From an uncultured Candidatus Actinomarina sp. (GTDB lineage Bacteria > Actinomycetota > Acidimicrobiia > Actinomarinales > Actinomarinaceae): a stretch of 56,420 nucleotides of DNA. Position 1 is the stretch's first letter, and each line of letters starts with the position of its first letter. Shown here one piece after another: positions 6,564 to 20,513 of the stretch. Position numbers and translations under genes: made by a program. The notes beneath the pieces were generated by a model, which saw only the letters and a list, made by a program, of their open reading frames with translations, had not been told where the DNA came from and made no database searches. The stretch lies in the NCBI GenBank assembly GCA_902593475.1, contig CACJIM010000008.1, forward strand, positions 1 to 56,420, given 5' to 3'.

Positions 6564-6997
6564 TGATTCAAAATTTAGCAATTGCATCTGACCATGCTGG
6601 ATACAAATTAAAAAATTATATTGTTAACAACCTTAAAAGAGAAATTAACATAAAAGATTTTGGAACTAATAATGAAGAGAGTTGCGACTTTCCAGACTTT
6701 GCAAAAGAAGTTTGTGATTTTGTACTCAATAATGAATCCTCTAGAGGATTATTGATTTGTGGAAGCGGTGTAGGTATGTCAATTGCTGCTAATAAAATCA
6801 AAGGAATAAGAGCTGCAAATGTAATTGATAAAGACACTGCAATACAAAGTGTTGAACACAATGATGTAAATGTTCTATGTTTAGGTGCAAATAATATAAA
6901 TGAGGAAAATGTTATAAATATTGTTGAAAGTTTTTTAGACGCTATGTTAATTAAAGAAGAGAGATATCTAAGGAGAATTAGTAAATTTGAAGACTAG
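6563..6997 (+). CDS. rpiB: ribose 5-phosphate isomerase B
   Basis: ASDHAGYKLK, GLLICGSGVGMSIAANKIKGIRAA. Confidence 0.95.
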   Translation: MIQNLAIASDHAGYKLKNYIVNNLKREINIKDFGTNNEESCDFPDFAKEVCDFVLNNESSRGLLICGSGVGMSIAANKIKGIRAANVIDKDTAIQSVEHNDVNVLCLGANNINEENVINIVESFLDAMLIKEERYLRRISKFED

Positions 6998-7350
6998 ATT
7001 GACATTTGCCAAATTGCCTTAATCCAATCATCTGTAATCTCATTCCTTGCAAAAACCACAATACCAATTGCACCCTCTTGATAAACCTCTCTCATTGATG
7101 TACCAGTTGTATATACATCGTCACAAATTAACATCGGATCATTTTCGTCATTAGATGCGTACTGTTTAAGGGCATTTTCAAAAGGAATACCTCCACGAGG
7201 TATACCAACAACATCTTTAAATTTAATTTTTTCGCTTACTATTTTTGCAAGCGCTTCGTAATCACCCTCACTTAACGCATCACATTCGACCTTCCAAGTC
7301 AATGGCAATCCTGCGTGTGAAATAAAATCTTCTCTAATAAATAAATTCAT
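6994..7350 (-). CDS. pyrE: compact orotate phosphoribosyltransferase-like protein
   Basis: PRPP motif MLICDDVYTTGTSM; last gene of the pyr operon; ATG at 7350 overlaps the pyrD stop (ATGA). ORF track extends to 7383. Confidence 0.75.
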   Translation of the reverse strand: MNLFIREDFISHAGLPLTWKVECDALSEGDYEALAKIVSEKIKFKDVVGIPRGGIPFENALKQYASNDENDPMLICDDVYTTGTSMREVYQEGAIGIVVFARNEITDDWIKAIWQMSI

Positions 7351-8024
7351 AATAACCTTCCTAATTTTACTGGATTGAAACATACAGTTCCAAGACTTAT
7401 GTGATCTGCGCCTAACTCAATATAATGCTCAATATCTTTTTTTTCAGATATTCCTCCACCAGCAATAATCTCAATATGAGGATAGTACTGCTTTATATGC
7501 TCAATAAATTTAGAAGTATATGGGATAAGTTCTTTTCCACTTAAACCACCTTTTTCAATAGGCAAAGTATTACAAGCATGGATTTGTTTAAAGTTAAATT
7601 CATTTATATATTTTTCTAACTCATCAAAAGTTGTTAATGGAGAAATCTTTCCAATATACCACTGGCGAGACTCATAACTGAATTTTTCAATTCCTGAAGT
7701 AAAGTGGCTTTCAATATTTGGGCATGACATATTTACTTCTAGATTTGTATCACTAGGAATCAATTCAGCAAAAATTTTCCAATCATCTTCCTCAATTCCA
7801 GCTATTGAAAATACCTCATTTTTTTTATGATTTTTTATACCATGTTCAAATCCCGGATTTCTTAAGCCTATTTTGTTAACCCACCCTCTTTTGGTGTATC
7901 TCAGTGTTTTTACAATTTGCTTTATACGACCTTTACGTTTTTCTATAGTCCAGCTTCCAGTAACGGAGATTGTGTTTGATGTTTTAATATAATTTCCAAA
8001 TGGTGCTGCAATAAATGTTTTCAT
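7347..8024 (-). CDS. pyrD: dihydroorotate dehydrogenase-like protein (short, 225 aa)
   Basis: LEVNMSCPN, HACNTLPIEKGGLSGKEL, EIIAGGGIS motifs; pyr operon position. Confidence 0.78.
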   Translation of the reverse strand: MKTFIAAPFGNYIKTSNTISVTGSWTIEKRKGRIKQIVKTLRYTKRGWVNKIGLRNPGFEHGIKNHKKNEVFSIAGIEEDDWKIFAELIPSDTNLEVNMSCPNIESHFTSGIEKFSYESRQWYIGKISPLTTFDELEKYINEFNFKQIHACNTLPIEKGGLSGKELIPYTSKFIEHIKQYYPHIEIIAGGGISEKKDIEHYIELGADHISLGTVCFNPVKLGRLL

Positions 8025-8659
8025 AACTCTAAATCATTGATAATGTAGTCGAGATTATTTCTTATAGATCTTCCCATAACTATATATTTTGCACCTTCAT
8101 TGATTGCAAAATTAGGTGTTGCAACATTTTTTTGGTCATTTTTGTCATCATTTTTAAGACGTATTCCAGGAGTTACAATTAAATCAAATATCTCTTTTGT
8201 TTTAGATATTTCTGAAGCTGGACAAATTACTCCGTCAACACCACATTCCTTTGCTTCTTTAAACTCTTTGTTCACTTCTTCACTTACTGAGTTAGTCATA
8301 GCCCTACTGGTTAATGCACTGCTAACACCAAGAATTTGTAGAGTGTTGCCTTTAGTGTTTGATGCTTCAATTAAGGCATCGCTAGTAGAAGCAATATGAA
8401 TTGTTAAAAAATCTGCTCCAAGGTTTGCTGCACTTCTTGTAGCTTCCTTAATAGTATTTGGTATATCATGAAGTTTTAGGTCTAAAAAAACTTGCCATCC
8501 TTGTTTTTTTAACTTTTCTACAACAGATGGCCCTTCAGAAACAAAGAGTTCAAGGCCTACTTTTACTCCGTATATATGATCTTTTAATATCTTTAGTTCA
8601 AATTCAAATTCAGATAATGATTTACCATCTAATGCAAAGAATATTGGTTTAACTGACAT
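8021..8659 (-). CDS. pyrF: orotidine 5'-phosphate decarboxylase
   Basis: [32 protein letters not shown]; start set at [12 protein letters not shown]. Confidence 0.94.
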
Positions 8660-11600
8660 TTTGTATTGCCTCCATGTCTTCAAAAGATTTTGTAGTTTCT
8701 AAAAATGCCTTTAAAAAAGCTTCAGCTTCTCTGACAGATGAGACTACTGCAACTCCAGTTTCATGAGAGAGTCTCCTAATTTTCCATCCATCTGTATATT
8801 CATTTGCAAATGTTGGTGTATTGATAACAAGTGAAATTAGTTTATCTTGAAGAATAGTCAAAGAAGTTGGAAAGGTCTCATCAGCCCTTCCAACAATAGT
8901 TGAGTTAATTTCGCTATTTTTTAAGTATTCTCCTGTTCCGTATGTTGAATAAATTTTGAATCCTAAGTCGGAATAAGTTTTTACAATTTTTATAAAATTA
9001 GGTTTTTCTTGATCGCTAAGAGACACAAAAATTCCTTTTTCATTTTCATTTATTTCAACTCCTGCAGCTGCATAAGCTTTATTTAAAGCAACTCCAAAAC
9101 TTCTTCCAATTCCCAATACTTCTCCGGTTGCTTTCATTTCAGGGCCAAGCATTGTATCTTCAGCTGGAAATCTTGACCAAGGAAAAATAGCTTTTTTAAT
9201 AGCTACTTTATTTGTTGTACTATTCAAATAATTGGTAGTTTTTTTGATTGAATCCAAACTATGTCCAAGCATTAAAAGGGTGCCAGCTTTGATTATTTGG
9301 TTTCCCGTTACTTTTGACACAAAAGGCATAGTTCTTGAAGCTCTTGGATTTGCCTCAAGAATAAATAATGTATCATCTTTAATAGCAAATTGAATATTTA
9401 ATAACCCTTTTACACCAAGGGCTTTTGCAAGGGTCGTACTCTTGTCTTCAATTTCCTTTATCATGCTTTCCGTAATACTAAATGGTGGAAGAACAGCAGT
9501 AGAATCTCCACTATGAACTCCTGCAGGTTCCAAATGCTCTAAAATTCCTGCAATAAAGACATCTTTTCCATCCGAAATTAAATCAACATCTATTTCGATG
9601 GTTTCGGTTAGAAACTGATCAACAAGTAGTGGCCCAGAACTAAAAGGATTTCCATCATCATCTGCAGTTGCCAATATTGATAGATAGTTTTTTAACTCAT
9701 CATCATTTTTAACAACACGCATAGCTCTACCTCCCAAAACATAGCTTGGTCTTAATAGCACAGGATAAGTAATTTCTTTTACTGCACTGATTAACTCATC
9801 CTCATTGAATGATATTTTTGATTTTGGTTGATCAATATTTAAAGATAAACAAAGCTTTTGAAATAAATCTCTATCCTCAGTTGCATCTATGACATCTAGA
9901 GACGATCCTGCAATTTTATAACCAGCTGAAGAGATTTTATCCGCAAGCTTTAGGGGAGTTTGTCCTCCAAGTTGAATAATTACTGAATCTGGGTTTTCTC
10001 TTGCTAACACTGCTTTAACTTCATCCCAAGAAAGTGGTTCAAAATACAATTTGTCGGCAGTGTCATAATCTGTAGAAACAGTTTCTGGGTTTGAGTTAAT
10101 CATAATAGCTTCATAATTATTTTCTTTTAATGACTCAACTCCATGAACACAGCAATAATCAAACTCTATTCCCTGTCCGATTCTGTTTGGTCCCGAACCT
10201 ATGACTACGACTTTTTTGTTCTTTGATGCGCTGTCATCGTCTGACGTCCCAAAAGTGGAGTACAAATATGGAGTTTTTGATAAAAATTCTGCAGAACAAG
10301 TGTCTACAAGTTTATAAGCTCTCTTATTTTCAAGGTCATCCTTTATTTCTTTAGAATCTACATCTTCATCAGTCCAACCAAGCATTTTTAAAATTGATAC
10401 AGGAGTTGACTCTGGGTTTACATTAAAACTTTTTTCAATCTCTCTTAAAAACCACAAATCTACTTTTGACAATGAAGCTATATCTTCGATTGGCCAGTTT
10501 CTTCTGATAGCTTCTAGAATCGCAAAAATTCTTCTAGGTCTTGGTGTTTTAATTTCTTCTTGAAGCTGGTTTTTTGGCAGGTTTATAAATCGGTTATCAA
10601 TATTTCTTATTCCCGTTTTACCTATTTCAAGTGATCTGATTGCTTTAGTTAAGCTTTCTGTGAAAGTTGAAGCTATCGACATAACCTCACCAACACTTTG
10701 CATAGACGTTCCTAAAACGTCATCTGTTGAGGGGAATTTTGGAAAATCAAATCTTGGAATCTTAACCACAACATAGTCCTGAACTGGTTCAAAACTTGCT
10801 GGTGTTGAACCAGTAATATCATTTTTTAATTCTGTAAGGTTGTAACCCACAGCTAATAATGCTGCAAATTTTGCAATAGGAAACCCAGTTGCTTTAGATG
10901 CCAATGCTGAAGATCTCGAGACTCGAGGATTCATTTCTATAATTCTTCTATCACCATTTTCTGGATTAACTGCAAATTGAACATTGCTGCCACCAGTTGC
11001 AATCCCAATTGTGTCTAAACAAAGTAGAGCTTCGTCTCTCATAATTTGATATTCTTTGTCAGACAAGGTTTGAATTGGGGCAACTGTAATGGAATCTCCA
11101 GTATGAACGCCCATTGGATCAAAATTTTCAATTCCACAGACGATAACACCGTTTCCATCACTGTCTCTCATTACCTCAAGTTCATACTCTTTCCATCCAT
11201 AAACAGATTCTTCTATTAGAACTTCTTGTGTTGGAGATGCTTTAAATGCATCTTTTAATTTTTTTTCTAAGTCTTGTTTGCTTTCAACAAGACTTGTGCC
11301 ACCTCCACCTAAAATAAATGAAGGCCTAAGCATTAATGGAAATCCTATATCTTCACTTGCAGCGACACCCTCTTCGATAGATTTAACATACTCAGCTTGT
11401 AATGTTTTGATTCCTGCACTTTCCATAGCGCTTTTAAATAGCCACCTATTTTCTGCAATCTCTATAGATTTTGCTGAAGCACCCAAAAGTAAAATTTCAT
11501 TTTTGTCGAATACATTGTCATTTTCTAATTCCATTGATAAATTAAGTGCTGTTTGTCCACCTAATGTAGGTAAGACAGCATCAGGTTGTTCAATCTCAAT

Positions 11601-11831
11601 TATCTTTTTCAAATAATTTACAGTTAGTGGTTCAATATATGTAGCGTCTGCCATTTCAGGATCAGTCATAATAGTTGCTGGATTTGAATTAACAAGTATT
11701 ACTCTATAACCTTCCTGTTTAAGAGCTTTTGCAGCCTGTGATCCTGAGTAATCAAACTCACATGCTTGCCCAATTACAATTGGACCTGATCCAATTATTA
11801 ATATGCTATTTATATCTTTATTTTTTGGCAT
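8649..11831 (-). CDS. carB: carbamoyl-phosphate synthase large subunit
   Basis: [21 protein letters not shown]; two ATP-grasp halves; start set at MPKNKD. The 45-aa N-terminal ORF extension overlaps carA. Confidence 0.97.
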
Positions 11832-12915
11832 AGTTACTTTCCATAAGTTTGACAAAGGGGTCAAAAATTTGCAGTCCATCAGATGTGCCTGGACCAGATT
11901 CTGGATGAAATTGTACTGAATAAGCCATTGACTCCCAGATACTAATACCTTCATTACTTCCATCATTTAAATTACTTGCGTAACTTTCAATTCTTCCAAA
12001 TTTTTCATGCACAAGATCAGCTTCAAAATCATCTACAGCAAATCCATGATTCTGAGCAGTAATCAATGCTTTCTTGATTCCTTTAATTTCTACTGGGTGA
12101 TTAGAGCCATGATGTCCAAATTCTAGTTTTTTAACATTCAGACCACACGCAAGGCTTAAAATTTGATGACCTAAACAGATTCCAAATATAGGAATATTAC
12201 CAATCAGTTTTTGAACAGTATCAATTACACCTTCAAGAGATCTTGGATCTCCAGGGCCATTAGATATTAAAATACCTTTTAGATTCATTGAAAGTATATT
12301 TTCTGCTGATTCTTTTGGAGAAATTGCTACAGTTTGAAAATTTAACTTTTTTAATACATTTACAATACTTTGTTTAGCTCCAAGATCTAAAATTCCAACT
12401 TTACCAACTGTATCATCACCCAAATTCAAACTACCAGCGGTTAGTGCTGAATTATCACCAATTATGTCCCTAGCATTCATAACTAAATTAATAAGTGAGT
12501 CTTTATCAATCTCTTGCCCCATTGCAAACATACTGGACCCACAGTCTCTAAGATGTTTTGTTATTGACCTGACATCAAAACCACCACTAAAGGGTATTTC
12601 ATATTCTTTTAACCAGGAAGTTACAGATTTTTCTGATCTCCAAGATGATGGATCATATGTAAATGAATTACCTATAGCAGCTTCAATTTTTGGTTCATTA
12701 GACTCATAATCATCTTGTGACATTCCATAATTTCCAACATGAGAAGAAGTAAACGTAATTATTTGATTTATATAGGAGGGGTCACTGAGTATCTCAACAA
12801 AACCTGTCATTGCTGTGTTAAATATTAGTTCACCAGTTGTAGGGTTAAATTCGTTATCGGACCATCCTATAAACTCATCTCCATTTTGATTGACAAGCAA
12901 AGTTTTTTTATACAT
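11818..12915 (-). CDS. carA: carbamoyl-phosphate synthase small subunit
   Basis: Class I GATase [32 protein letters not shown]. Confidence 0.97.
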
Positions 12916-13966
12916 GATTTAGTTCTTTCTGAATATTTACTTGGAAGTTTTCAAAGGCTGAATTTTTGTAGAATGATTTTGTAATAAAAGTACTATCATT
13001 TTTAGTCCAGCAATTCTTTTTAGTGTTTGAACTATCATATCCAAGACTAACCAGAATATTCATTGGGTTTATTGACATAAATCTTGTTAATTCTTCCAAG
13101 CTAAATAAATTTGAAGAAAATAAAACAACAAATGCTGACTCTAACCCAACTACGCCTCTTGCAGATTTCTTGAAACTTACTTCTTTAGTTTCTTTTGGAT
13201 GGGGCGCATGATCAGTAGCAATTACATCGATAATTCCATTTTTTAGGCCATTAATTAATGCTTGCCTATCTTCTTCTGATCTTAATGGTGGATACATTTT
13301 GAGGCTTCCGTCATTCATATTTATATCTAGGTTATTTTTTAATAAGTGATGAGGGGTTACTTCGGCAGTTACTGGAAGGTCATTTTCTTTTGCATCTTTA
13401 ATTAGTTCAACACTCTTTTTAGAAGAAACATGTTGAACATGGTATCTTGTTTTATATTTATTTACTAAATCTAAATCTCTTTTTACAATTTCAAACTCTT
13501 CATTTTCATGAATAGTGATTAATTCCGAAGTATTGTGAGGAGGTGCTATATCACCAGGGTTTGTGTGACAGTTTTTTTCACAATGTTGAAAAATTGCAGC
13601 ATTTAATTGAGCAATTTTTTTAAAAGCAATTTCCGAAAGATCATCATCAATAAGTGTTTTTCCATCATCTGAAAAAATTGTTACTCCTTCGTCAACAAAT
13701 TCATTAAAATTTACAAGTTCTTTTCCATCAAGGTTTTTTGACAATGCTCCAACTCGATGAACTTTTATGTCTAACTTTTTATCAATAGACCTCGCAAGTT
13801 TAAGATTTTCTATTGAATCAATTGTTATTTCAGAATTTGCCATAGCTAAAACTTCTGAGTACCCACCGTTTAGTGCTGCTTTTTCAATTTCTAAAAAAGG
13901 GAAATTATTTTTATCGGGATAACGTGTATGGGTATGAAGATCAATAAATGATGGCAGTTCAATCAT
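12908..13966 (-). CDS. pyrC: dihydroorotase
   Basis: FIDLHTHTRYPDK metal motif; VIATDHAPHPKETKE. Confidence 0.94.
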   Translation of the reverse strand: MIELPSFIDLHTHTRYPDKNNFPFLEIEKAALNGGYSEVLAMANSEITIDSIENLKLARSIDKKLDIKVHRVGALSKNLDGKELVNFNEFVDEGVTIFSDDGKTLIDDDLSEIAFKKIAQLNAAIFQHCEKNCHTNPGDIAPPHNTSELITIHENEEFEIVKRDLDLVNKYKTRYHVQHVSSKKSVELIKDAKENDLPVTAEVTPHHLLKNNLDINMNDGSLKMYPPLRSEEDRQALINGLKNGIIDVIATDHAPHPKETKEVSFKKSARGVVGLESAFVVLFSSNLFSLEELTRFMSINPMNILVSLGYDSSNTKKNCWTKNDSTFITKSFYKNSAFENFQVNIQKELNHV

Positions 13967-14841
13967 ATTGCTCCAAAAACATATTGATAGCTTGCAACCC
14001 TTGCAGGAATTGCCATTTTTAGTTGCTCTTGGTATATAAATTTTTTACTTTTTGCTGCATTGTCGTCTATTTCTATTCCAATATTTATCGGCATCGGATG
14101 CAAGACAACAAAGTCATCAGAAGTGTTTTCAAGTATCTCATTGGTTAATTGAAAGTTTTTTTTGTAATTATTAAAATCAAAACCTTCTATATTTTCAATG
14201 CGTTCTTTTTGAACTCTTAATAATTCAACAGATCCTGAATTTTCAACTACTTCTTCCCAAGAATTAAAAACACATAAATTATCTAAATTACTAGGAAGAA
14301 GTTCTTCATTAGAGAAAACACCAACCTTAAATCCTAATTTGGTCAATAGTTCTCTGCCAGAGGAAAATACTCTAGAGTGTTTGAGGTCACCAACATAAGT
14401 CACTGGTACTTCATAGGAAAATTTATTTAATTTTGTTAGAGTTGCAACATCAACTAATGCTTGTGTTGGATGAGAAGTATTACCAAATCCTCCACTGATA
14501 ACTGAAATTTCATTAAAATTTTTATATTCTTCTAAATTATTTTCTTTTGTCCTTATTACTAATGCTTCTATTCCCATTGATTTAAAGGTTTCCAATTCGT
14601 GAATCAAGCTTTCACCTTTTTCTTTAGCTGAAATCGAGTCTTGTGACTCTACTACATTGATCCCCAATTTCTGAGCAGCAATTGAAAATGAAAGCCTAGT
14701 TCTTGTTGAGCTTTCATTAAATTGTAAAAGGGTAAAAGAATCAATTTTTTTTAATTTTTGTATATTAAGTTTTAAAATTGAATTAATAATCTTTTCCAAA
14801 TTTTCTTTTTCTACATTTTGAAAATCTAGAAGATGATTCAT
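13963..14841 (-). CDS. pyrB: aspartate carbamoyltransferase catalytic subunit
   Basis: FNESSTRTRLSFSIAAQKLG; VVLHPMPIN. Confidence 0.95.
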   Translation of the reverse strand: MNHLLDFQNVEKENLEKIINSILKLNIQKLKKIDSFTLLQFNESSTRTRLSFSIAAQKLGINVVESQDSISAKEKGESLIHELETFKSMGIEALVIRTKENNLEEYKNFNEISVISGGFGNTSHPTQALVDVATLTKLNKFSYEVPVTYVGDLKHSRVFSSGRELLTKLGFKVGVFSNEELLPSNLDNLCVFNSWEEVVENSGSVELLRVQKERIENIEGFDFNNYKKNFQLTNEILENTSDDFVVLHPMPINIGIEIDDNAAKSKKFIYQEQLKMAIPARVASYQYVFGAI

Positions 14842-14844
14842 ATG

Positions 14845-15321
14845 CTATGTGACCTCAACCTTATCAACATCATCTAATTCTTTAAGAAATACTGAAACAT
14901 ATTCTTCTTCATTAGTAGGTATATTTTTTCCAATGAATTTCGGACTAATGGGTAGTTCTCTATGGCCTCTGTCAATCAAGCAAAGAAGGGATATTAATCT
15001 TGGCCTGCCTGTATGAACAACGGCCTCTATTGAAGCTCTTAAAGTTCTTCCTGTATAAATGACATCATCAATCAAAATAACATCTCTTTCTTGCGGATTT
15101 ATATCTAATTTGGTTTTCTCAATTTCTTCTTCTAAATCATCTCTAAATGGTAAATAATCAACAGTATCAATATCATGTGCGTAATTTAGCTGATCAAGGT
15201 TTTTCGAAATTCTTTTTGCAATTAAATCGCCTCTTCTTGGGATTCCAAGTAAAAGAGGATTGATAAATTCAGATTCAGTAATTTCTTTACTAAGACGATA
15301 AATTAATTTATCTATTTCCAA
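14845..15321 (-). CDS. pyrR: PyrR pyrimidine operon regulator / uracil phosphoribosyltransferase
   Basis: VILIDDVIYTGRTLRASIEA PRPP motif; first pyr gene. Proposed TTG start at 15321, 6 nt after GGAAGGA; the ORF-track GTG at 15339 lies inside a hairpin stem. Confidence 0.92.
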   Translation of the reverse strand: MEIDKLIYRLSKEITESEFINPLLLGIPRRGDLIAKRISKNLDQLNYAHDIDTVDYLPFRDDLEEEIEKTKLDINPQERDVILIDDVIYTGRTLRASIEAVVHTGRPRLISLLCLIDRGHRELPISPKFIGKNIPTNEEEYVSVFLKELDDVDKVEVT

Positions 15322-15327
15322 GACATT

Positions 15328-15334
15328 TCCTTCC
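15328..15334 (-). promoter_or_regulatory. Shine-Dalgarno of pyrR (GGAAGGA)
   Basis: Minus-strand GGAAGGA, 6 nt before TTG 15321. Confidence 0.75.
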
Positions 15335-15350
15335 GACACTCACAGGTGTC
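15335..15350 (-). promoter_or_regulatory. PyrR RNA-binding loop (GACAC-CUGUGA-GUGUC hairpin)
   Basis: 5-bp perfect stem with hexaloop CUGUGA matching the PyrR consensus CNGNGA closed by C-G; abuts the pyrR SD. Confidence 0.85.
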
Positions 15351-15399
15351 AATTAAAGTCGTATTAATACTACCAAAAAATTAATTTAAAGAATTTGAT

Positions 15400-16329
15400 T
15401 TACCTATTTTCTCTAAAGAATGGAATACCAATATTTTTTGGAGCACCAGTATTTCCATTTTTTATAATTGTTAAGAAAACTAATACAAGGATAGTAATTA
15501 TGTAGGGTGTAATTTTGACAATGTATGGACTCATTTCAAATCCATATGTTTGTAAACGTGGACCAAGTGCCTCAAGAAAACCAAATAGTAAAGCTCCAAA
15601 CGCAGTTCTATATGGTTTCCATCCTCCGAATATTACTAATGCCAATGCAATCCATCCACGTCCAGAGGTCATACCATCGGTCCAATATGGAACATAGCTT
15701 AGAGTAAGATAGACACCAGAAAGACCAGCAAAAGCTCCACCCACACAAGTTGCTATAAATTGTGTTTTTGCAATTTTTAGCCCCATAGAATCTGCAGATT
15801 TCAAATCCTCACCTATTGCTTCGATTCTTCTTCCGAACATTGTTTTCTTTAAAATATAAGCGGTAAAAATCATAAGCAAAATAGCTATATAAAAGATAAG
15901 ATTTTGACTGAGCAATACTTGAAAAATATTTGATGGCTCTGCAATATCAATAAGGCTTTCAAGTTTGACTTCTAATTTTTTTCCAACATATGGTTTTCCA
16001 ATCAAAGAAGAAAGAGAAAGTCCAAGGATAGTTAAAATTAATCCAGACACTGTTTGATCTTGTTTTAGGACAACAGTTACGAAAGCATGAATTGATGAAA
16101 ATGCTGATGCACTTAGAACACCAACAATTACTGCTAGAAACAAACTTTCCGTATTAATTGCTGTAATGAAACCTGAAACAGCTCCAACTGAAATCATTCC
16201 CTCTACCCCTAGATTTAAAATTCCAGATTTTTCAGTAATAAGTTCTCCTAAAGCAGCAATAAACAACAAAGTTGCAGCTTGCAATGTAGCATTTAGTAAA
16301 CCCATTAACTGTACATCAATCATTTTCAT
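15400..16329 (-). CDS. ABC transporter permease (nucleoside/BMP-type, BPD_transp_2)
   Basis: Multi-TM; EKSGILNLGVEGMISVGAVSGF; operon with BMP protein. Confidence 0.9.
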   Translation of the reverse strand: MKMIDVQLMGLLNATLQAATLLFIAALGELITEKSGILNLGVEGMISVGAVSGFITAINTESLFLAVIVGVLSASAFSSIHAFVTVVLKQDQTVSGLILTILGLSLSSLIGKPYVGKKLEVKLESLIDIAEPSNIFQVLLSQNLIFYIAILLMIFTAYILKKTMFGRRIEAIGEDLKSADSMGLKIAKTQFIATCVGGAFAGLSGVYLTLSYVPYWTDGMTSGRGWIALALVIFGGWKPYRTAFGALLFGFLEALGPRLQTYGFEMSPYIVKITPYIITILVLVFLTIIKNGNTGAPKNIGIPFFRENR

Positions 16330-17377
16330 CCTTTTTTAAAATTTCATATGAAAAAAAGAATTGAGCTACCAAAGCACCAAAAAGAGTAGTTGCCTGAATT
16401 ATCTCAGCAATATATGAACTTACACCGATAGTTTGTATTACAGAGCCTCCGATAGTTAAAGCTCCAAACAAACAACCTACTAAGAATATACCAATAGGTC
16501 TCATTCCAGTTATTGCTGCAACAATAATAGCTGTATAACCAAATCCCTGAGAAATTCCAGTTGATACTCTGTGTGTCTGGCTTAATAATTCGATTGCTCC
16601 AGCTAGCCCAGCAAAACCACCACCAATTAACATTGCAAAAAATGCTTTTTGTTTTGCACTAATTCCAGCATAAATGGCAGTCAATTCTGATCCACCAGCT
16701 ATTCTCATTTCATATCCAAATACTGACTTGTCTTTAATGTAATAAGCTATGAGAGTGAAAAGTATACAAATTAAAAATCCAGAGCTTAATTTTCCCAAAA
16801 CAGTCGGTAAATAAACTGACTCACTTACATAGGCTGCTGCAGGAAAATTTAAAGAAGCAGGATCTTTCCAAGCACCATTTATTAAATAAATAGTTAGCCC
16901 AAAGACAATATAATTCGTAAGAAGAGTTGTAATAATTTCATTCACTCCAAATAAAACTTTTGTAATTGCAGGGAAGAAAATACAAAAAGCACCTCCTAAA
17001 AATCCAGAAACTAACAGTAGCAAAATATATATTTGCGAATTATTTATTGAAGTATTTATGTAAACAAAATTTAGAGCAATAGCTCCCATGAAAATTTGAC
17101 CTTCAGCTCCAATGTTCCAGAGCTTTACAGAGTTAATTATTGAGATACCTAGTCCAGCCAATATAAGAGGTATCGCCTTATTTAGTGAGTTGCTGAGACT
17201 ATTTACGCTGCCAATAGATAATTTAAGCATTAAGGAGAAAACATCGAAGGGATTTTTTTCCTGAATAAATAATATTAAAGATCCCACAGCAAGAGCAATC
17301 AAAAAGCCTATTAAGAAAGAATAAAAAGTTGCTAGTTCATTTCTGTAAAGTTTTTTAGAAAGAATATATTTATTCAT
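16316..17377 (-). CDS. ABC transporter permease (nucleoside/BMP-type)
   Basis: Multi-TM; NIGAEGQIFMGAIA motif. Confidence 0.9.
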   Translation of the reverse strand: MNKYILSKKLYRNELATFYSFLIGFLIALAVGSLILFIQEKNPFDVFSLMLKLSIGSVNSLSNSLNKAIPLILAGLGISIINSVKLWNIGAEGQIFMGAIALNFVYINTSINNSQIYILLLLVSGFLGGAFCIFFPAITKVLFGVNEIITTLLTNYIVFGLTIYLINGAWKDPASLNFPAAAYVSESVYLPTVLGKLSSGFLICILFTLIAYYIKDKSVFGYEMRIAGGSELTAIYAGISAKQKAFFAMLIGGGFAGLAGAIELLSQTHRVSTGISQGFGYTAIIVAAITGMRPIGIFLVGCLFGALTIGGSVIQTIGVSSYIAEIIQATTLFGALVAQFFFSYEILKKDEND

Positions 17378-18863
17378 TTATACCAGCCATTGCATAGCCT
17401 ATGGTCTCAATTGTTGCTGAATCGATTCCAACTTCTTTTACTACTTTGCCTTCGTAAAGAACAATAATCCTGTCACTAAGTTTAAAAAGCTCATCAAGAT
17501 CCTCTGAAATCAACAGAACAGCTGAACCTTTGTCTCTTTGATTAATTATCAATTTATGAATTGCATCAACTGCACTAACATCCAATCCTCTAGTTGGCTG
17601 GGCCGCAACAATTACTTCAGGGTTTGAAATTAATTCTCGACCCATTAAAAGTTTTTGCATATTTCCACCTGAAAGAGTAGATATTTCTGCTTTTACATCA
17701 GGTGCCTTAATCGCAAACTGCTTGATTAGATCATTTAAATAACCTAGCATTTTCCCTTTTGATAAATGAGGACCGTAGCTTGCCTTAAAATATTCTTTTA
17801 TAGCGGAATTATCTAAAACTGACACACCCGGAGCTAAACCCACACCAAGTCTATTTTCAGGAATATAAGAAAGGCTTAGCTTTTTTCTAGATTTAACACC
17901 TTTTTTTGAAACATCTTGAGAATTAATTAAAACTCTTCCTTGAAATTCTTTTTCAATTCCACAAATAACATTTGCTAGCTCTACCTGGCCGTTACCAGAT
18001 ACACCAGCAACACCCAGAATCTCTCCTGCTTGAATTGTAAAAGAAATATCGTCAAGTGATTTAAATTGTTCACTGTTTGTAAGTGAAATGTCTTTTACTT
18101 CTAATTTGATGTCACCCTTCTTGTTATCTTTTTTGAAATTAGAAGTTTTAACCTCACCCATCATCAATTCAATAAGTTCCTGATCAGTTACTTTTTCAGT
18201 TTCTAAATTTTTTGCAACCATTTTTCCGTTTTTCATTACAAATATTCTTTCAGTAAAATCTTTTATCTCTTTTAATTTATGAGTAATTAAAACAATGGTT
18301 TTATCATCTTCCTGAGAAAGTTTATCCAAAGATTCTTTAAGCTGTAATGTTTCCTGAGGAGTCAGAACTGCAGTAGGTTCATCAAGAAGCATAATTTCAC
18401 TATTTTTAAAAATTAATTTCATTATCTCTACTTTTTGTTTTTCACCAACAGAAAGTTCACTAATAGGAGTTAGATAACTCGAATTCAAAGTAAATATTTC
18501 TGAATATTTTTCGTATGCTTCTTCAAAATTATCAGAAAATATATTTGCTTTAGAAAGAGTAAGATTATCTTTTATTGTGAAACTATCTATAAGTCTAAAT
18601 TCTTGATGTACCATTCCAACCCCAAAAGAAGATGCAATATCGGGGTTCATTTTTTGAATATTTTGGTTTTTAATTTTAATAGTTCCACTTTCTGGTAAGT
18701 AAATTCCAGATAAAACATTCATTAAAGAAGATTTACCAGCACCATTTTCACCCAGTAGTCCGTGTACGATACCTTTTTGCAGGAAGAAATCTACACTATC
18801 AAGTGCTTTGACGTTTCCAAAAGTTTTAGAAACACCTTTTACTTCAAGAATTGGAGAACTCAT
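17370..18863 (-). CDS. ABC transporter ATP-binding protein, two NBDs (nucleoside-type)
   Basis: Walker A GENGAGKSS; LSVGEKQKVEI and LSGGNMQKLLMGREL signatures. Confidence 0.93.
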   Translation of the reverse strand: MSSPILEVKGVSKTFGNVKALDSVDFFLQKGIVHGLLGENGAGKSSLMNVLSGIYLPESGTIKIKNQNIQKMNPDIASSFGVGMVHQEFRLIDSFTIKDNLTLSKANIFSDNFEEAYEKYSEIFTLNSSYLTPISELSVGEKQKVEIMKLIFKNSEIMLLDEPTAVLTPQETLQLKESLDKLSQEDDKTIVLITHKLKEIKDFTERIFVMKNGKMVAKNLETEKVTDQELIELMMGEVKTSNFKKDNKKGDIKLEVKDISLTNSEQFKSLDDISFTIQAGEILGVAGVSGNGQVELANVICGIEKEFQGRVLINSQDVSKKGVKSRKKLSLSYIPENRLGVGLAPGVSVLDNSAIKEYFKASYGPHLSKGKMLGYLNDLIKQFAIKAPDVKAEISTLSGGNMQKLLMGRELISNPEVIVAAQPTRGLDVSAVDAIHKLIINQRDKGSAVLLISEDLDELFKLSDRIIVLYEGKVVKEVGIDSATIETIGYAMAGINE

Positions 18864-18874
18864 ATATAAAAGTA

Positions 18875-18907
18875 ATTAAGCACTCCAGCATTGCCGGAGT
18901 GCTTAAT
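18875..18907 (-). repeat. perfect 12-bp inverted repeat between BMP and ABC ATPase genes
   Basis: attaagcactcc - agcattgcc - ggagtgcttaat. Confidence 0.9.
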
Positions 18908-18917
18908 AAAAAACATG

Positions 18918-19925
18918 TTATGGATTTACAGTACCAATAACATTATCGATAAATTCATCTTCCACAATAGGAGGATCAAATGAACCACCAATTATCTCGT
19001 CAGTTCTTTGAGAGATTAAACTAGCAGTATCAGATGGGACATCAGAGGAAAGCTCATATAAAGAGACTAATCCTGTATCCATACCACCCCAGTATGCTTC
19101 TGCGACAAACTTATCATTTACAATAGACTCAACTACTTCAACATAGTACGGACCCCAGTCCCAGACAGGCGCTGTTACGAAGGCTCCAGGAGCAGCATCT
19201 TGTCCATATGCAGTATTGTAAGAAATCCATTTAGCACCAGCAGCTTCTGCCGCGATACCTGTCGATGGTGAATCTTGGTGTTGTGCAAGTACATCAACTC
19301 CAGTTTCAAGCAAAGCATTTGCAGCTTGTGTTTCAGCTTCAGGGCCAAACCAAGTAAATGTCCAAACAACTTCAACAGTTGCGTCTGGATTTACTTCTTT
19401 AACACCTGTAGCAAAAGCATTAATGCCTCTGATAACTTCAGGTATAGGGAACGCAGCGACATAACCTATTTTGTTTGATTCTGTCATTGCACCTGCCGCT
19501 AAGCCAGAAAGATATCTTGGTTGATACATTTTTCCGAAATAATTTCCAAAGTTTGTATCATTTTTAAGATAACCGGAACAATGTAAGAAAATGACATCAG
19601 GATATTCCTCTGCCATTTCAGCCATTGCATCTAAATAACCGAAAGTTGTTCCAAAAATTATATTGTAACCTTGTTCAATATAAGCTTCAGCAACTGTTCT
19701 GAATTCTGTAGCATCTTCTGGAACAAGCTCCGTATAAGCTGTTTCGATTCCAGTTTGTTCTACAAGATATTGTCTACCTACATCATGTGCTTGTGACCAG
19801 CCACCATCGTCTGCTGGACCTACATACACAAATGCAGCTTTGTAATCATCTACGTCTGCGGCTCCCCCGCAGGCCATAGCAAGAATACTGATAATAAGCA
19901 GGCCTACCGCCCAACTTCTTCGCAT
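18918..19925 (-). CDS. BMP-family substrate-binding lipoprotein
   Basis: Lipobox LAMAC; AAFVYVGPADDGGWSQAHDVG; SD AAAGGAGG upstream. Confidence 0.92.
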   Translation of the reverse strand: MRRSWAVGLLIISILAMACGGAADVDDYKAAFVYVGPADDGGWSQAHDVGRQYLVEQTGIETAYTELVPEDATEFRTVAEAYIEQGYNIIFGTTFGYLDAMAEMAEEYPDVIFLHCSGYLKNDTNFGNYFGKMYQPRYLSGLAAGAMTESNKIGYVAAFPIPEVIRGINAFATGVKEVNPDATVEVVWTFTWFGPEAETQAANALLETGVDVLAQHQDSPSTGIAAEAAGAKWISYNTAYGQDAAPGAFVTAPVWDWGPYYVEVVESIVNDKFVAEAYWGGMDTGLVSLYELSSDVPSDTASLISQRTDEIIGGSFDPPIVEDEFIDNVIGTVNP

Positions 19926-19954: not shown

Positions 19955-20051
19955 GAACATGCTCAAGCTACGTCTTTTATTTTGAAGGTAAAAAATAATT
20001 AAATATTTTCTCTGCACTTTTTATTCTTTGATAAAATTAGCACTTACGAAA

Positions 20052-20513
20052 ATGGAAAAATTAATTTATACCTGGGAACAGCAAATTGATGACACAAATT
20101 TAATTTGTGCAAAAATTGAAGCAGATGGATTTAAACCAGATGTAATTGTTGGCATTAGTAGAGGAGGATTGATTCCTGGAGTAATGATATCTCATAAACT
20201 CAATATACCTTTTAAACCAGTACATGCTTCAACTAGGGACTTTCCACATTGGGAAAATTATCTTCCGAAATCCAATGATTCAAAAGTTTTAATTGTTGAT
20301 GATATATGTGACAGTGGTGAGACTTTTGAGCGATTATCAAATTATATTAAGGATAATATAAACCATGATTGCGATGTTCGTTTTTCAGCTTTGTGGTGGA
20401 ATAACGAATGTGATTTTGAGCCACATTATTACACAAGAGATTTAGCAAAAGACTCTGAACCGGTCTGGATTTTTTTTCCACACGAAAATTGGTGGGAAGG
20501 TTCAATTAGCTAA
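20052..20513 (+). CDS. purine-type phosphoribosyltransferase (xanthine/hypoxanthine-like)
   Basis: VLIVDDICDSGETFERL PRPP motif; VIVGISRGGLIPGVMISHKL; start at MEKLIY (ORF track starts at TTG 20028). Confidence 0.8.
   Translation: MEKLIYTWEQQIDDTNLICAKIEADGFKPDVIVGISRGGLIPGVMISHKLNIPFKPVHASTRDFPHWENYLPKSNDSKVLIVDDICDSGETFERLSNYIKDNINHDCDVRFSALWWNNECDFEPHYYTRDLAKDSEPVWIFFPHENWWEGSIS

Follow-up and report, generated by a model that had tools for sequence, protein, structure and literature searches.

A predicted PyrR-binding RNA element containing the pyrR Shine-Dalgarno sequence in Candidatus Actinomarina

Introduction

How is the synthesis of UMP controlled in Candidatus Actinomarina, in which a small RNA hairpin lies at the very start of the pyrR gene? 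The question arises from a stretch of 56,420 nucleotides from an uncultured member of this genus (contig CACJIM010000008.1; the whole stretch is called the window below), where a sequence-only reading had proposed that the hairpin mediates translational autoregulation of the pyr operon. This proposal is supported by the conservation of the hairpin, the covariation of its stem, its position at the ribosome-binding site (RBS), the lack of a terminator and the TTG start of pyrR. PyrR-dependent translational autoregulation of the Mycobacterium type is the best explanation of the locus, and we hold it with high confidence. The type of switch is already known, and the Actinomarina form appears from its sequence to be new and slightly altered, with a diverged RNA-protein interface. 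A known mode of control, feedback at translation, would thereby be extended to an uncultured and genetically inaccessible ocean lineage with a streamlined genome.

The pyr operon and its PyrR protein

The pyrR gene (14845-15321, minus strand, 158 aa) is the first of eight tightly packed genes in the order pyrR-B-C-carA-carB-F-D-E, most of whose junctions overlap, and this single operon holds what look like all the genes for UMP synthesis. On the minus strand, pyrB (aspartate carbamoyltransferase, 13963-14841) begins 3 nt past the pyrR stop codon and is overlapped by 4 nt by pyrC (dihydroorotase, 12908-13966), which in turn shares 8 nt with carA (11818-12915); carB (8649-11831), with a probable ATG at 11831, overlaps carA, and both car genes are assigned from their sequences. 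The run continues with pyrF (OMP decarboxylase, 8021-8656; PF00215), which overlaps carB, and a pyrD-like dihydroorotate dehydrogenase gene (7347-8024; PF01180), and ends with a probable pyrE-like phosphoribosyltransferase gene (6994-7383), named from a weak PF00156 match below the cut-off and from its position. The PyrR protein of the window belongs to the PyrR family by sequence, matching NCBIfam NF003549 with 158 bits against a cut-off of 138 and PyrR structures in the PDB with E values of 1e-25 to 1e-31, and carries the PRPP motif (DDVxYTGRT); its best match in named genomes comes from uncultured Candidatus Actinomarina, with 98% identity.

Upstream of pyrR, a BMP/PnrA-type ABC transporter is encoded on the minus strand (window positions 15400-19925), comprising a substrate-binding protein, an ATPase and two permeases. 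Its permease end is kept upstream of pyrR in congeners, and it comes nearest in NCBIfam to entries named "putative B6 transporter", below the cut-off. Nucleoside uptake by this transporter would fit the pyr neighbourhood. A separate gene for a purine-type phosphoribosyltransferase, resembling xanthine phosphoribosyltransferase below the cut-off, is found near the transporter on the plus strand (20028-20513).

Start codon, promoter and leader

Regarding the start of pyrR, alignment of congeneric sequences places it at the TTG of 15321-15319. In congeners the aligned codon, 10-12 nt 3′ of the hairpin, is TTG, GTG or ATG, with a spacer whose length differs between Actinomarina clades, and the clade with ATG has an in-frame stop at the 3′ end of the hairpin. 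The aligned starts and this stop back the TTG that the sequence-only reading had favoured. The GTG at 15339 was rejected as the pyrR start, since it lies in the 3′ arm of the stem and the leader alignment contains no start codon within the hairpin that is common to congeners.

An extended −10 element, TGGTAGTAT, is predicted at 15367-15375 (minus strand) and would place the transcript start near 15360, giving a predicted leader of about 39 nt before the TTG. The GNTANNAT box is invariant in 28 of 28 distinct congeneric leaders except at its variable position 6; in these leaders it keeps a constant spacing of 8 nt upstream of CUUU and is preceded by TG in nearly all, and a comparably placed TA-rich box occurs in other members of the class. 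Because the predicted transcript start lies only about 39 nt before the TTG, there would be no room for an attenuator. The sequence-only reading had noted the lack of a terminator or antiterminator, and indeed no terminator was detected within the pyrR leader; an open reading frame (ORF) between the element and pyrR is likewise absent in Actinomarina. The element lies at the RBS of the operon's first gene, with neither leader ORF nor terminator, which is the arrangement of the Mycobacterium type. PyrR-dependent translational repression was reportedly described by Fields and Switzer in 2007 (J Bacteriol 189:6236; cited in PMC10672894) for the pyr operon of Mycobacterium smegmatis, which is like the predicted Actinomarina system in having the PyrR-binding loop at the transcript start, no attenuator and an occluded RBS of the first pyr gene.

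Structure of the predicted element

Read on the minus strand from 15375 to 15319, the region consists of TGGTAGTAT, TAATACGA, CTTT, AAT, TGACAC, CTGTGA, GTGTCG, GAAGGA, AATGTC and TTG. The hairpin GACAC-CUGUGA-GUGUC at 15350-15335, followed by the Shine-Dalgarno (SD) sequence and the TTG, was reproduced as the sequence-only reading had given it. Its upper stem is formed by the 5′ arm (U)GACAC (15346-15351, of which GACAC is 15350-15346) and the 3′ arm GUGUC(G) (15334-15339, of which GUGUC is 15339-15335); the pair U15351·G15334 lengthens this stem to 6 bp, and U15352·G15333 is also possible. The stem carries the hexaloop CUGUGA (15340-15345), which has the CNGNGA form of PyrR-binding loops. 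Below it, on the 5′ side, is the bulge AAU (15352-15354), which is AAA in many congeners and whose AA is invariant in the genus. The next segment, CUUU (15358-15355), can pair in two alternative registers with AAGG or GAAG (15333-15329), leaving a bulge of 2-3 nt on the 5′ side, and a lower helix with a 5′ purine-rich bulge (CUUU AA(N) ... AAAG) is again a property of PyrR-binding loops. The 3′ strand of this helix is part of the SD, GGAAGGA (15328-15334), whose AAGGA is invariant in 23 distinct genus sequences.

As CUUU and (A)AAGG form the lower helix, the SD is predicted to sit inside the PyrR-binding element and not beside it. The sequence-only reading had drawn the hairpin as a neighbour of the SD, within an extent of 15319-15350; the position of the hairpin and its association with the RBS stand, but the SD is itself a strand of the lower helix, which moves the 5′ limit of the element to about 15358. 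The CUUU strand, invariant in 28 of 28 distinct congeneric leaders, would also act as an anti-SD mimic: it resembles the 16S anti-SD CCUCCUUU, which the same genome carries (16S 3′ end, GGAUCACCUCCUUU). PyrR of Bacillus subtilis recognises the terminal loop, the top of the upper stem and the purine-rich bulge (PMC7430163). The Actinomarina element resembles the B. subtilis anti-antiterminator, or binding loop (RF00515), in its CNGNGA hexaloop, short stem, 5′ purine bulge and CUUU..AAGG lower helix, and differs from it in the absence of a terminator and antiterminator.

In the free RNA, the five core pairs of the upper hairpin have computed probabilities of at least 0.98 in the window; in a few congeners this hairpin is not the favoured computed fold (L012, L017, L025, L030). 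The lower helix is marginal, with a mean probability of 0.22 over 30 congeneric leaders. Since the upper hairpin forms and the lower helix is only marginal, the RBS would be partly open until the helix is stabilised.

When both strands of the 56 kb window were scanned, a CNGNGA loop with at least six closing pairs was found only once, at the pyrR hairpin. The exact pattern GACACCNGNGAGTGTC also has a single occurrence in the window, and a second site within three mismatches of it does not match the loop. Folding energy does not set the 71-nt pyrR leader apart (z = −0.30), and the case against chance therefore comes from comparison with relatives.

Conservation and covariation in the genus and class

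A full-length pyrR match is present in 31 of 42 congeneric genomes, several of the 42 being incomplete. With a search model that includes genus sequences, the element was found exactly once in each of these 31 genomes, always linked to pyrR or the pyr genes, and was absent from all 11 genomes without a full-length pyrR match; no second regulated site was found elsewhere in the Actinomarina genomes at E values up to 10. Alignment of leaders from relatives, put forward in the sequence-only reading as a check for stem covariation, revealed both conservation of the hairpin and compensatory changes in its stem. The same hairpin occurs in 30 of 30 aligned congeneric leaders, and the 28 distinct ones show no variation in CUUUAA, in C-G-GA of the loop or in the core of the SD; the C, G, G and A of the loop also remain invariant when the class is included. 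Among 23 genus sequences, the upper stem has 22 compensatory cells against 7.7 in shuffles, with 99.6% of cells paired. The two-sided changes are GC/AU, UA/CG and AU/GC, and no slid register comes near this result. The class alignment gives 100 compensatory cells against 33.5 in shuffles. The sole broken upper-stem pair in the genus is an A-G mismatch at the loop-closing pair of two congeners (L015 and L016; CAATGA, loop CTGTGA, GCATTG).

The lower helix is almost invariant within the genus and has no covariation support of its own there. It covaries in other families of the class, where CCUUU/AAAGG, CCGU/ACGG and ACGU/ACGU are found, and of 36 class sequences, 22 have U-A and 13 have G-C at its pair 6-32.

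The near-palindrome lies just downstream of the −10 element, and the conservation might in principle act at the level of DNA, as an operator overlapping the early transcribed region. This is highly improbable, considering that the loop is asymmetric and invariant, that the compensatory changes allow G·U pairs, and that the same element precedes pyrR by about 120-330 nt in several Bacillota leaders.

Divergence of the RNA and of PyrR

The B. subtilis consensus for the top of the stem is ARUC/GGYU (PMC7430163). The window has AC/GU in place of UC/GG, so the match to the Bacillus-type loop claimed by the sequence-only reading is exact in the hexaloop and departs from it at the stem top; because of this departure, the claim of strict membership by sequence is lowered. 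The second pair beneath the loop is U·G in 83 of 92 sequences from outside Actinomarina; in Actinomarina it is U·G in 0 of 30, being A-U in 17, G-C in 11 and G·U in 2. On the protein side, in the N-terminal helix of PyrR, the position of B. subtilis His22 (Actinomarina position 12), which is not a formal criterion of the PyrR family, is Lys in 30 of 30 Actinomarina proteins and His in 92 of 92 others, and the position of B. subtilis T18 (Actinomarina position 8) is Tyr or Phe in all 30. T18 and H22 of B. subtilis PyrR are reported from mutagenesis to be RNA-binding positions. The same features set Actinomarina apart from M. smegmatis, with A-U/G-C pairs replacing the consensus U·G under the loop, and Lys and an aromatic residue taking the positions of His22 and Thr18. 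As Actinomarina is one lineage, the change in RNA and PyrR counts as a single correlated event and not as a statistical association.

The sequence-only reading had proposed a search with the Rfam PyrR model. At the gathering threshold, no Rfam family matches the window: RF00515 (PyrR) reaches 25.8 bits against a cut-off of 54, and at E values up to 10 it is the top match in the window by bits, but weak. It lies above the cut-off in none of the 39 genomes searched. These results below the cut-off, in the window and in the 39 genomes, indicate that the attenuator-length model of 115 nt is unsuited to the compact leader. A covariance model built from sequences outside Actinomarina (R2), run unfiltered, places the pyrR site first in the window with a weak score (15.8 bits, E 0.032) and as the best match in most of 25 congeneric loci; with the prefilter of a genome search, R2 missed the pyrR site across 39 Actinomarina genomes. 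The divergence of RNA and PyrR would explain both the weak R2 score and the miss in the prefiltered search.

The loss of the consensus U·G, the replacement of His22 by Lys in 30 of 30 congeners with a full leader and the weak score of the outgroup model could also mean that PyrR binding was lost as RNA and protein diverged, leaving the hairpin as an unregulated 5′ stabiliser or a structure for RBS spacing. We consider this very unlikely: the loop C-G-GA, CUUUAA and AAGG remain invariant in 28 distinct leaders while the stem letters change in pairs, a mere stabiliser would need no CNGNGA letters, and the presence of the element tracks that of pyrR. Binding by PyrR is the preferred reading. More speculatively, the pair may have been re-specified to an orthogonal code, with T18/H22 becoming aromatic plus Lys and the U·G being lost, such that Actinomarina PyrR would bind its own leader and not that of Mycobacterium or Bacillus, and vice versa; this is a tentative idea that we think more doubtful than not. 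The paired change in the RNA stem top and the PyrR helix offers a natural experiment on RNA recognition by PyrR.

Proposed mechanism

Judged from sequence, PyrR would bind the Actinomarina element, and ligand dependence, SD occlusion and translational coupling are presumed. Transcription would begin near 15360, immediately upstream of the element. With an ample supply of uridine nucleotides, UMP- or UTP-bound PyrR would grip the CNGNGA hairpin and presumably keep the weak lower helix, CUUU/(A)AAG, from opening; the SD GGAAGGA would then be covered, and ribosomes would be unable to start at the TTG of 15321. Because the pyr genes abut or overlap, repression would pass downstream, spreading by translational coupling, probably together with mRNA decay, to pyrB, pyrC, carAB, pyrF, pyrD and pyrE.

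Distribution and variation of the element

Elsewhere in the class, 38 of the 40 pyrR leaders drawn from other families contain the element. A 33-nt covariance model built from genus and class sequences (R1) finds matches in 225 of the 246 genomes that were sampled throughout the phylum, at a threshold of E up to 0.1 per genome at which some tens of weak matches could be due to chance, most E values being far lower; nearly all of the loci examined precede pyrR. Annotation thus undercounts PyrR control, as the Rfam model misses the compact leader and the 33-nt model matches more than 90% of the sampled genomes of the phylum.

In many lineages of Actinomycetota, the SD of the element opens a short ORF of about 6-40 codons, often ending in ..GGVF; ahead of pyrR, this ORF overlaps a terminator-like hairpin that has a U run (L184, L194, L195, L200, L214-L220, L226, L239, L240, L249, L250 and L253, among others; within the class, L032, L036, L038, L041, L043 and L049). 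Binding of PyrR in these lineages would prevent translation of the leader ORF, so that the terminator could form. This resembles the pyr leader of Thermus Z05, where, as Van de Casteele et al. reportedly proposed in 1997, translation of a leader ORF keeps the terminator from forming unless PyrR blocks that ORF. In Actinomarina, too, the position of the element is such that binding would prevent the start of translation, but the SD concerned is that of pyrR; the Thermus-like plan occurs in other Actinomycetota. The class contains both plans, the direct one with the element at the pyrR SD and the one with a leader ORF.

The occurrence of a short ORF and terminator-like hairpin between element and pyrR in several families of the class and many actinobacterial lineages raises the alternative that PyrR binds the Actinomarina element and acts mainly by transcription attenuation, through a downstream terminator, whether a leader ORF is involved or not, on the Bacillus pattern or the one proposed for Thermus. 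One weak terminator-like site does exist inside pyrR (15036-15023), but its stem has 5 bp and it lies 285 nt into the gene; moreover, the SD and start of pyrR directly follow the element in Actinomarina, with neither ORF nor terminator in the leader. There is little chance that attenuation is the main mode of control here, and translational repression at the pyrR SD remains the preferred reading.

Prochlorococcus genomes also encode a relative of PyrR (L104, L111, L113, L115, L117, L118, L120-L123, L142, L146, L150). A CNGNGA hairpin of at least 4 bp was not found in the 450 nt upstream of the genes for this relative, which may have another role. Two genomes of the class have a second PyrR element, with a lower helix of the CCGU/ACGG kind, immediately before carA (L191 in G082 and L208 in G057), which suggests a separate carA unit under PyrR control.
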